From: Acidobacteriaceae bacterium
GTDB taxonomy: Bacteria > Acidobacteriota > Terriglobia > Terriglobales > Acidobacteriaceae
DNA: 64,000 nt
Direction: 5' to 3'
Assembly (NCBI GenBank): GCA_025352065.1
Contig: JANXUC010000090.1
Coordinates: forward strand, 62,001 to 126,000
A program made the position numbers and the translations under genes. The notes beneath the pieces were generated by a model, which saw nothing but the letters and a program-made list of their open reading frames with translations, made no database searches and was not told where the DNA came from. This document shows positions 20,491 to 22,721 of the stretch, piece after piece; position 1 is the first letter of the stretch, and every line of letters begins with the position of its first letter.

Positions 20491-21651
20491 GTGCCCCCTG
20501 ATTCCCAAAATGGATTCCAAATCGAAGCCACCGCTGGCCCTGCGCGCCTCGGCAAGCTCTTCCTGCCACACGGAGTCGTCGAGACCCCTATCTTCATGCC
20601 AGTGGGCACCCTGGCGACGGTAAAGGGCATCTCTCAGGACCTCCTCGAAGACCTTGGCGCTCAGATCATCCTCGGCAACACTTACCACCTCTACCTGCGT
20701 CCCGGCGTCGAAACCGTGCGCCAAATGGGAGGCCTGCATGGGTTTATGTCTTGGCCGCACCCCATCCTGACCGACTCCGGCGGCTTTCAAGTCTTTAGTC
20801 TCAACGAGTTACGTAAGGTGAAGGAAGAGGGCGTCACGTTCCGCTCGCACCTCGATGGTTCCAGCCACTTCTTCAGTCCAGAAAGCTCCATCGAAGCCCA
20901 GATTGGACTCGGCGCGGACATTATCATGGCCTTCGACGAATGCACCGAGCACCCCGCCGACCATCGCCGAACCTATGATTCCATGGAACTTACGCTCCGC
21001 TGGGCCGCTCGTAGCAAGAAGTATTTTGAGGAGCATAAGCACGAAGTGCCTTGGAAAGCGTCAGTTGAAGGTCAAAAGCTGACAGGCGAAGGCGCCTGTC
21101 GCTACATGACCCCTCCCGGTGCCACCCAGTCCCTCTTCGGCATCGTCCAAGGCGGCATGGATTTTGCCATGCGCCGCCAATCCGCTGAGCGGACCATCGA
21201 AATCGGCTTCCCTGGCTACGCCATTGGAGGCCTTAGTGTGGGCGAGCCGCGCGAGCTGACCCGCGAGGTTGTCGAAGCCACCGTCCAGCACCTTCCCGCC
21301 GATAAACCCCGTTATTTGATGGGCGTAGGGACTCCCGAGGAAATCGTCCAATACGCCGCCATGGGAATCGACATGATGGATTGCGTGCTCCCCACTCGCG
21401 CCGCGCGCCACGGCTTGCTGTTTACTTCGGAAGGGAAGGTCTCCATCAAGCAGACGCGCTACTCGAAAGATGAGTCGCCGCTCGACCCCAATTGTCCCTG
21501 CAAAGTGTGTCAGAGATACTCACGAGCGTACCTGCGGCACCTCTATGCGGCCAACGAAGTATTGGCTCAAGTGCTCAACACCATTCACAACCTCAGTTAC
21601 TATCTGGGCCTCATGGCGGGTGTCCGCGCTAAGTTTCGGCGCGACGCATAG
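20491..21651 (+). CDS. tgt: Queuine tRNA-ribosyltransferase
   Basis: Tgt exchanges G34 of GUN-anticodon tRNAs for preQ1, the first tRNA-level step of queuosine synthesis. The catalytic Asp motifs are clear: DSGGFQVFSL and MAFDECTEHP. The zinc site near the C-terminus is CPCKVCQRYSRAYLRHL, with Cys, Cys, Cys and His. Length 386 is normal. The start is GTG at 20491 (MPPDSQNGFQIEATAG), directly before the family's first strand. queA, the next enzyme of the pathway, is in this window at 54 kb but is not linked to tgt. Confidence 0.97.
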   Translation: MPPDSQNGFQIEATAGPARLGKLFLPHGVVETPIFMPVGTLATVKGISQDLLEDLGAQIILGNTYHLYLRPGVETVRQMGGLHGFMSWPHPILTDSGGFQVFSLNELRKVKEEGVTFRSHLDGSSHFFSPESSIEAQIGLGADIIMAFDECTEHPADHRRTYDSMELTLRWAARSKKYFEEHKHEVPWKASVEGQKLTGEGACRYMTPPGATQSLFGIVQGGMDFAMRRQSAERTIEIGFPGYAIGGLSVGEPRELTREVVEATVQHLPADKPRYLMGVGTPEEIVQYAAMGIDMMDCVLPTRAARHGLLFTSEGKVSIKQTRYSKDESPLDPNCPCKVCQRYSRAYLRHLYAANEVLAQVLNTIHNLSYYLGLMAGVRAKFRRDA

Positions 21652-21728
21652 CCCCGCACTGTCGTTCGTGGTTGGAGCACAGAAAATGTGGACAGAAGTC
21701 GCCCTACGTTGTAGCTTTGAAGAGTACG

Positions 21729-21765
21729 AAAAAAGCCGCCTGATGGATCCTGACCACCAGGCGGC
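21729..21765 (-). terminator. Rho-independent terminator of the small membrane protein gene
   Basis: On the minus strand GCCGCCTG (21765-21758) pairs with CAGGCGGC (21742-21735), extended by CCAC/ATGG-like pairs with one mismatch, and is followed by six T. It starts nine bases after the stop of the small gene. No T-run follows on the plus strand, so it serves the minus-strand gene and not tgt. Confidence 0.8.
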
Positions 21766-21773
21766 GCTATGCA

Positions 21774-21878
21774 CTACCGCGACAGCAGTAGCACAAGGAT
21801 GATTAGCGCCACGACCGACAGTACCAGTCGATAATCGACCAGTACCGCGATGCGGAGCCAGGACTTCTTACGGTCCAT
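21774..21878 (-). CDS. 34-residue membrane protein
   Basis: An ATG at 21878 is preceded by GGAGGTGA, an almost perfect anti-16S complement, with six bases between. The 34 codons start MDRKKSWLRIAVLVDYRL, then a 15-residue hydrophobic run (VLSVVALIILVLLL), ending SR and TAG. Positive residues before the helix suggest an N-in orientation. A strong terminator follows immediately. The gene is antisense to nothing and lies in an otherwise empty 670-base gap between tgt and yajC. I know no family for it. The ribosome binding site, membrane helix and terminator together make it credible despite its size. Confidence 0.7.
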   Translation of the reverse strand: MDRKKSWLRIAVLVDYRLVLSVVALIILVLLLSR

Positions 21879-22325
21879 GCCCGTCACCTCCATCATTGGA
21901 ATGCGGCCCGGCCTCTACGTCGGGCCGTTCGTCTTTGCAGACGAAACTCGACACGGCCGCCGGTCGGGCAAGGACTTTGATGGACGGTTTTTCCAGCGTA
22001 TAGCGCCGCAACCTGGTTGTACCACCCCTCGAAGGAGTACTTATCTCTGCTTGCTGGACAGGCAAGGCGCCTGTCGTTTCCGTCTTTTTCGCCGAAGATG
22101 ACGGAAATTTAACGTAACTCTCCTTGACACTAGCCGCGCAGTGCGGCAAGCTATTTCACTTGGGGATTCGCCGCAGTTTTTGACCGTGGCTAAAGCGTCA
22201 AACAACGCCGACCAGCTTCTCCGCAACAAATCCTAGCGAAGGAAGTCCGCTCGAAATCAGAGACGAAAGCCCCCAAACGCCCGTAAGTAGCTGAGTTGGT
22301 TCGGGCAGGCCTTTGAAAAATCCCA
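21879..22325. other. Intergenic region, mostly unexplained
   Basis: This 447-base stretch is the leader side of the small membrane gene on one strand and of yajC on the other. It contains a GC-rich hairpin (CGGCCC near 21907-21930), a palindrome GGCAAGGCGCC near 22060, and TTGACA at about 22124 without a convincing -10. No reading frame in it has coding character. Confidence 0.4.
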
Positions 22326-22721
22326 ATGACCCCCCAAGCCATGCTCCTCCAACCGACGATCTTCCAAGGTACGACCCTCCCAGCAGTTCTGAGCGCGAAG
22401 CCCGTAAGCATGGCTGCCCTCCTGCTATGGCAAGGTGCTGGCAGCGGCGGCAGCCTGGTCATGTTTGGAACCATGGCGGCGATTTTTGCCGTGTTTTACG
22501 TTCTCCTGATCCTTCCGCAGCAGCGCAAACAGAAAAAATGGCAGGGAATGCTGGACACCCTCAAGGCAGGCGACCGGGTGGTCACCAGCGGCGGCATTCG
22601 AGGGGTCATCATGACCATCAAGGACGATTATTTGTACCTGCGCATAGCGCCGGACAATTTGAAGATTGAAGTAGCACGTTCGGCCATCGTTTCCGTGAGC
22701 GGAGACGATGTGAAGAGCTAA
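22326..22721 (+). CDS. yajC: Preprotein translocase subunit YajC
   Basis: Small inner-membrane protein that associates with SecDF. After a variable N-terminus there is one membrane helix (about 46-66, MFGTMAAIFAVFYVLLILP), then the family pattern QQRKQKKWQGMLDTLKAGDRVVTSGGIRG in pieces and a C-terminal beta domain. 131 residues. The N-terminus before the helix is longer than usual (about 45 residues), so an internal start at the ATG for MAALLLW or MFGTM is possible. First gene of yajC-secD-secF. Confidence 0.92.
   Translation: MTPQAMLLQPTIFQGTTLPAVLSAKPVSMAALLLWQGAGSGGSLVMFGTMAAIFAVFYVLLILPQQRKQKKWQGMLDTLKAGDRVVTSGGIRGVIMTIKDDYLYLRIAPDNLKIEVARSAIVSVSGDDVKS

Follow-up and report, generated by a model that had tools for sequence, protein, structure and literature searches.

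The locus described here, in a 64,000-nucleotide stretch of an Acidobacteriaceae contig (the window), raises the question of whether a very short reading frame is a gene and, if so, to what kind of unit it belongs. On the minus strand, an ORF of 34 codons runs from 21878 to 21774 and specifies MDRKKSWLRIAVLVDYRLVLSVVALIILVLLLSR, followed by TAG (Table 1). Re-reading the window sequence confirmed the charged start, single hydrophobic helix and TAG that the original prediction had described, with a basic start and one hydrophobic stretch whose best 19-residue Kyte-Doolittle mean is 2.56. A whole-genome search located three other copies (C35:20955, L002; C54:10413, L003; C139:25391, L004), so that a ~250-bp unit is present at four dispersed sites in this genome, the window included. 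The homologous stretch (~220-240 bp, ~73-76% identical in DNA to the window copy) spans the upstream hairpin, the Shine-Dalgarno sequence, the ORF and a 3' hairpin. Leader, Shine-Dalgarno sequence and 3' hairpin are kept in all four copies and the ORF is intact in three, the frame of L004 being broken by a 14-nt insertion. The latter copy adjoins (L004:1752-2364; G000:C139) an apparent type II toxin-antitoxin pair, recognized by eye as Phd/YefM-like and RelE/ParE-like, of 104 residues each. The window unit sits between tgt and yajC-secD-secF (names read from the neighbors' sequence), and it had been suggested that this place beside the sec operon might matter; the suggestion was not supported, as the three other copies and those of related genomes adjoin unrelated genes. 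In E. coli, the type I toxin LdrA has been reported to be less toxic when extra YajC is present (2025; PMC12643268), and the unit (window 21651-22326) neighbors yajC; since the remaining copies are located elsewhere, this adjacency is probably a coincidence.

Table 1. Features of the unit in the window (positions within the 64,000-nucleotide stretch).
Feature	Position	Strand	Remarks
Candidate sense -10, TATACG	21997..22002	-	just 5' of leader; weak, without clear -35
Structured 5' leader RNA, ~108 nt, closing on Shine-Dalgarno region	21879..21987	-	covariance model, covariation in relatives
Closing stem P1, 5' arm, TCCATCA (anti-Shine-Dalgarno)	21978..21984	-	near inferred mRNA 5' end; pairs with 21889-21895
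Inner leader hairpin P3, GTTTCGTC / GACGAA	21928..21947	-	
Inner leader hairpin P4, CGGCCCG...CGGGCCG	21904..21927	-	
Closing stem P1, 3' arm, TGATGGA	21889..21895	-	overlaps Shine-Dalgarno
Shine-Dalgarno, GGAGGTGA	21884..21891	-	five bases 5' of ATG; predicted occluded, mean unpaired probability 0.05
Single-span membrane peptide ORF	21774..21878	-	conserved frame, purifying selection in relatives, three same-genome paralogues
3' hairpin, 12 pairs, sense mRNA intrinsic terminator	21735..21765	-	with T-run 21729-21734
Candidate antisense RNA promoter, TGGACA-17-TAGCTT	21689..21717	+	p=0.02 for window copy alone
G+C hairpin then TTCGTCTTT, candidate antisense RNA 3' end	21904..21938	+	terminator-like site 21903-21928

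A single-sequence search of 60 relatives gave no match outside the window's genome, and relatives emerged with profiles. Among 398 genomes of the family, profile searches at E<1e-4 found related units in ~18, which belong to nine genera; these counts depend on the E-value cut and come from genomes that are mostly MAGs. A genome of genus g33 has between one and four copies, and the seven genera other than g33 and that of the window mostly have single copies; the named records with members are MAGs from peatland, under the labels Acidobacterium sp. and Acidobacteriaceae bacterium. Matches with E above ~0.01 were rejected, including four in g80 that appear to fall within an unrelated coding gene, as were weak matches in other families of the phylum. 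Inspection of L068 showed no unit there, and 396 genomes sampled from the phylum yielded nothing convincing outside the family.

The peptides of these units have 32-35 residues, Kyte-Doolittle maxima of 2.2-2.8 and the consensus MDxKxSWTRIAITxxxDWRFVLAVVxLVLxLLL, with K or R as the last residue; start, Shine-Dalgarno sequence, stop and hydrophobic profile are all kept across genera. In seven disjoint pairs, which are related sequences and not fully independent, pN/pS in the ORF frame was 0.28 (synonymous changes at 73.5 of 194 sites, non-synonymous at 55.5 of 529; Fisher p=5e-16), and the remaining two frames of the same strand, used as controls, gave 1.08 and 2.0. A hairpin kept without its frame would have spoken against a gene; on checking, both the frame and the RNA structures proved to be conserved. 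Judged by this pattern of substitution, the three same-genome copies and the relatives in other genera, the 34-residue gene is a real, conserved small membrane-protein gene under purifying selection, as had been proposed. The family is unnamed and too short for usual gene callers, and 18 members scanned against Pfam, NCBIfam, PADLOC and PHROGs gave no match (best E=0.03).

The near-perfect Shine-Dalgarno sequence of the original prediction is indeed present, five bases before the ATG, and it lies in a conserved RNA structure. RNAalifold on 15 leaders of other genera (alignment A9, with the window genome's copies left out) returned 31 pairs, of which ten show compensatory change on both sides; 94.4% of cells were paired, a level reached by none of 500 shuffles and compared with 30-46% in slid controls. 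In these relatives, the closing stem P1 is likewise formed by the leader 5' end and the Shine-Dalgarno sequence, with the inner hairpins next. Since MAFFT, given all 19 leaders, did not align the copies of this genome correctly with the others, the window copy was instead tested with a covariance model built from other genera only, which matched it at 21876-21990 of the minus strand (26 bits, E=9.4e-5) and also recovered L003, L004 and L082. The upstream motif CCGGGCCGTTCGTCTTT, at hairpin P4, occurs four times in the genome at up to two mismatches, once in each unit. Folding predicted a median unpaired probability for the Shine-Dalgarno sequence of 0.02 in 22 units versus 0.21 in 17 other window ORFs with such a site (p=4e-4). 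Since the leader hides the ribosome-binding site, the near-perfect site is no sign of strong translation.

Just 5' of the leader, relatives carry TANNCT at the position of the window's candidate sense -10. Some 20-60 bases 5' of this inferred element, the upstream flanks of L064/L073/L101, L066/L098/L075 and L065/L100/L097 contain the conserved blocks GTTAC..TTTCG and GGTAATCTGTCGCG, which might serve as -35 elements or bind a regulator. At the other end, the 3' hairpin was found in the units examined. In the window it begins 8 bases past the stop and has TTTTTT right after it, so the predicted terminator of its own holds for this gene; the stem had been described as eight pairs and was counted here as 12, nine of them G-C. 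The g33 copies are without a T-run after this hairpin, and in L071 (G272:C500) the end of the ORF and the 3' hairpin are partly duplicated in tandem downstream of the unit. The heptamer of the anti-Shine-Dalgarno arm, TCCATCA, recurs in the 3' arm of the terminator hairpin (21741-21756, minus), which could therefore also pair with the ribosome site; such long-distance pairing fits the window copy and L004 but not L003 or most g33 copies, and is not claimed.

Past the 3' hairpin, the opposite strand carries a recurrent promoter signal. TTGAC[AT] was found on that strand in 7 of 9 units outside g33 and in none on the ORF's own strand, with shuffles averaging 0.43 units (maximum 3 in 3000), and a -10-like hexamer usually follows 17 or 18 bases further. 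The bipartite promoter score, taking one unit per locus, gave a Fisher value of 2.8e-8 for the opposite strand versus 0.67 for the same strand, a p-value that is optimistic since the TTGAC motif had been noticed before testing; the promoter weights were hand-set. L140, a later-found member, carries TTGAAA-17-GATACT where such a promoter would be expected (p=0.005) and is the sole independent confirmation of the motif; L139, the other later member, has a broken C-terminus and no obvious opposing site. The window copy's own signal is weak (p=0.02 bipartite, p=0.49 by the -10 alone), and L003 has no clear opposing promoter (p=0.39). In g33, a conserved opposite-strand TANACT stands at a fixed place past the 3' hairpin, preceded by TGn in several copies, and the sequence beyond it decays. 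These promoter motifs make an antisense RNA covering the ORF likely. Such an RNA could cross both the ORF and the Shine-Dalgarno sequence and, in this genome, end at the hairpin and TTCGTCTTT of positions 21904-21938; this candidate terminator is conserved in the genome's four copies, and the g33 copies are without it.

The conserved frame, the conserved leader with its predicted occluded ribosome site, the dispersed multicopy units and the enriched opposite-strand promoter signal are best explained by a stand-alone small gene of type I toxin-antitoxin design, a reading to which we give a probability of about one half. Type I toxins are small, with one helix, cationic ends and Shine-Dalgarno sequestration (PMC8309996; PMC6733600), AapA occurs in several chromosomal copies (same reports), and Shine-Dalgarno sequestration together with cis antisense RNAs is documented in type I systems (PMC6733600; PMC8309996; PMC11228461). 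The family peptides are hydrophobic, shorter than 60 residues and single-helixed with basic residues, as type I toxin peptides are, and by predicted folding the message has a hidden ribosome site, a common although not universal feature of type I toxin messages. In the proposed module, the sense transcript would start just 5' of the leader, and its first bases would pair with the Shine-Dalgarno sequence to close the multi-helix leader, leaving the primary message poorly translated. The opposing promoter just past the 3' hairpin would produce an antisense RNA whose sequence is complementary to that of the ORF and of the ribosome site; this RNA would block or destroy any escaping message. Should the balance shift, by trimming of the leader 5' end or loss of the antisense RNA, the cationic 33-35-residue peptide would be made and would insert in the inner membrane, probably lowering membrane potential and growth. 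The antisense transcript, the trigger, a silencing that lasts up to the opening or trimming of the leader, the membrane action and the toxicity are all postulated here; since toxicity and an RNA antitoxin are what we infer, we call the unit type I-like and do not claim membership in type I. Slightly short of even odds is the fuller proposal of a new type I family that is native to Acidobacteriota; there, the toxin message would lock its own ribosome site with its first bases, by closing a multi-helix junction, and an antisense RNA would start at the toxin's 3' hairpin.

The main rival is a leader-regulated stress or housekeeping membrane peptide, non-toxic and without an antisense partner, whose translation would be switched by the leader alone, acting as an RNA thermometer or sensor, with the opposing promoter unimportant. 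We consider this unlikely, although it draws on the best-supported part of the unit, since the leader is just that, Shine-Dalgarno occlusion is common to thermometers and riboswitches, and a peptide with one helix and no catalytic residues would suit such a role. Against it, the signal for an opposing promoter is seen again at loci that are unlinked, and a housekeeping peptide would not usually be present in several scattered copies, often broken. The broken copies (L004, L099, L101 and L079) are consistent with toxin decay, and also with a dispensable gene. Furthermore, no other gene was found to carry the leader: a search of 150 genomes with model R1 for a riboswitch core common to the leaders of different genes gave no convincing leader without this ORF, its extra matches (L117-L124) being weak, without an ORF, and rejected. 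Leader loops vary between genera, so that no conserved ligand core is seen, and Rfam returned nothing at gathering score in the window (in permissive mode, the best E for eight loci was ~0.9).

Dispersed intergenic copies, with TANACT motifs at both outward ends, might instead suggest a mobile miniature element or dispersed repeat, with the ORF as a chance passenger. This reading is disfavored and very unlikely, as the copies are strongly diverged rather than near-identical and searches of viral contigs, plasmids and phages gave no relatives. Moreover, three orthologous loci in g33, e.g., the polA-glmM gap (named from flanking sequence), hold their position between species with flanks 67-95% identical, and therefore the units are old residents and not recent insertions. 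It is also highly improbable that the functional RNA is that of the plus strand (an sRNA or the yajC-secDF 5' UTR), with the ORF strand its mere complement: a promoter-like site and a terminator-like hairpin do lie on the plus strand, but frame selection acts on the minus strand, units elsewhere do not adjoin sec genes, and G-U outnumbers A-C by 36:13 in covarying leader pairs, an excess which indicates that the sense strand is the folded RNA. Finally, a small RNA gene with an incidental ORF, despite the strong conserved RNA structure that such a gene would explain, is strongly disfavored by codon-position bias and low pN/pS in the ORF frame only, and by a start, ribosome site, stop and hydrophobic profile conserved over genera.

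A 2025 paper (PMC12390103) gives Proteobacteria, Firmicutes and Tenericutes as the sole phyla from which type I systems had been known, adds Cyanobacteria and blames this narrow range on search bias. The phylum of the present unit lies outside those listed. A family found through its coding frame, leader covariation and opposing promoters would support the search-bias view, and the approach offers a route to such modules without similarity to known ones. The unit family would also permit a direct test in cultured Acidobacteria.

Among known systems, RNA thermometers and translational riboswitches likewise place the Shine-Dalgarno sequence in the closing stem of a structured leader; the leader described here differs from them in having been found with one peptide family only, with no conserved ligand core seen and no Rfam match. 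The msoT1/msoA1 locus of Microcystis (PMC12390103) is, like our unit, a type I-like locus beyond Proteobacteria, Firmicutes and Tenericutes, although msoT1, compared here by description, is cyanobacterial, has two predicted helices and had its toxicity assayed in E. coli. PMC11228461 describes type I toxins whose leader is under two-step control and whose primary message is inactive by its own structure until processed; leader and peptide differ from ours, and a message predicted to be inactive through its own structure is the common trait. A further likeness, drawn by description and with no curated family joining the two, is to AapA/IsoA of Helicobacter pylori (PMC6733600; PMC8309996), which shares with the unit a ~30-residue peptide that is single-helixed and basic at its C-terminus, several copies in the chromosome and a message made inactive by Shine-Dalgarno occlusion. 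AapA/IsoA has a cis antisense RNA, where the unit has a candidate. In AapA/IsoA, occlusion is achieved by a 5'-3' long-distance interaction and metastable hairpins, whereas in the unit it would be achieved locally, by a multi-helix leader whose 5' end is itself the anti-Shine-Dalgarno sequence.
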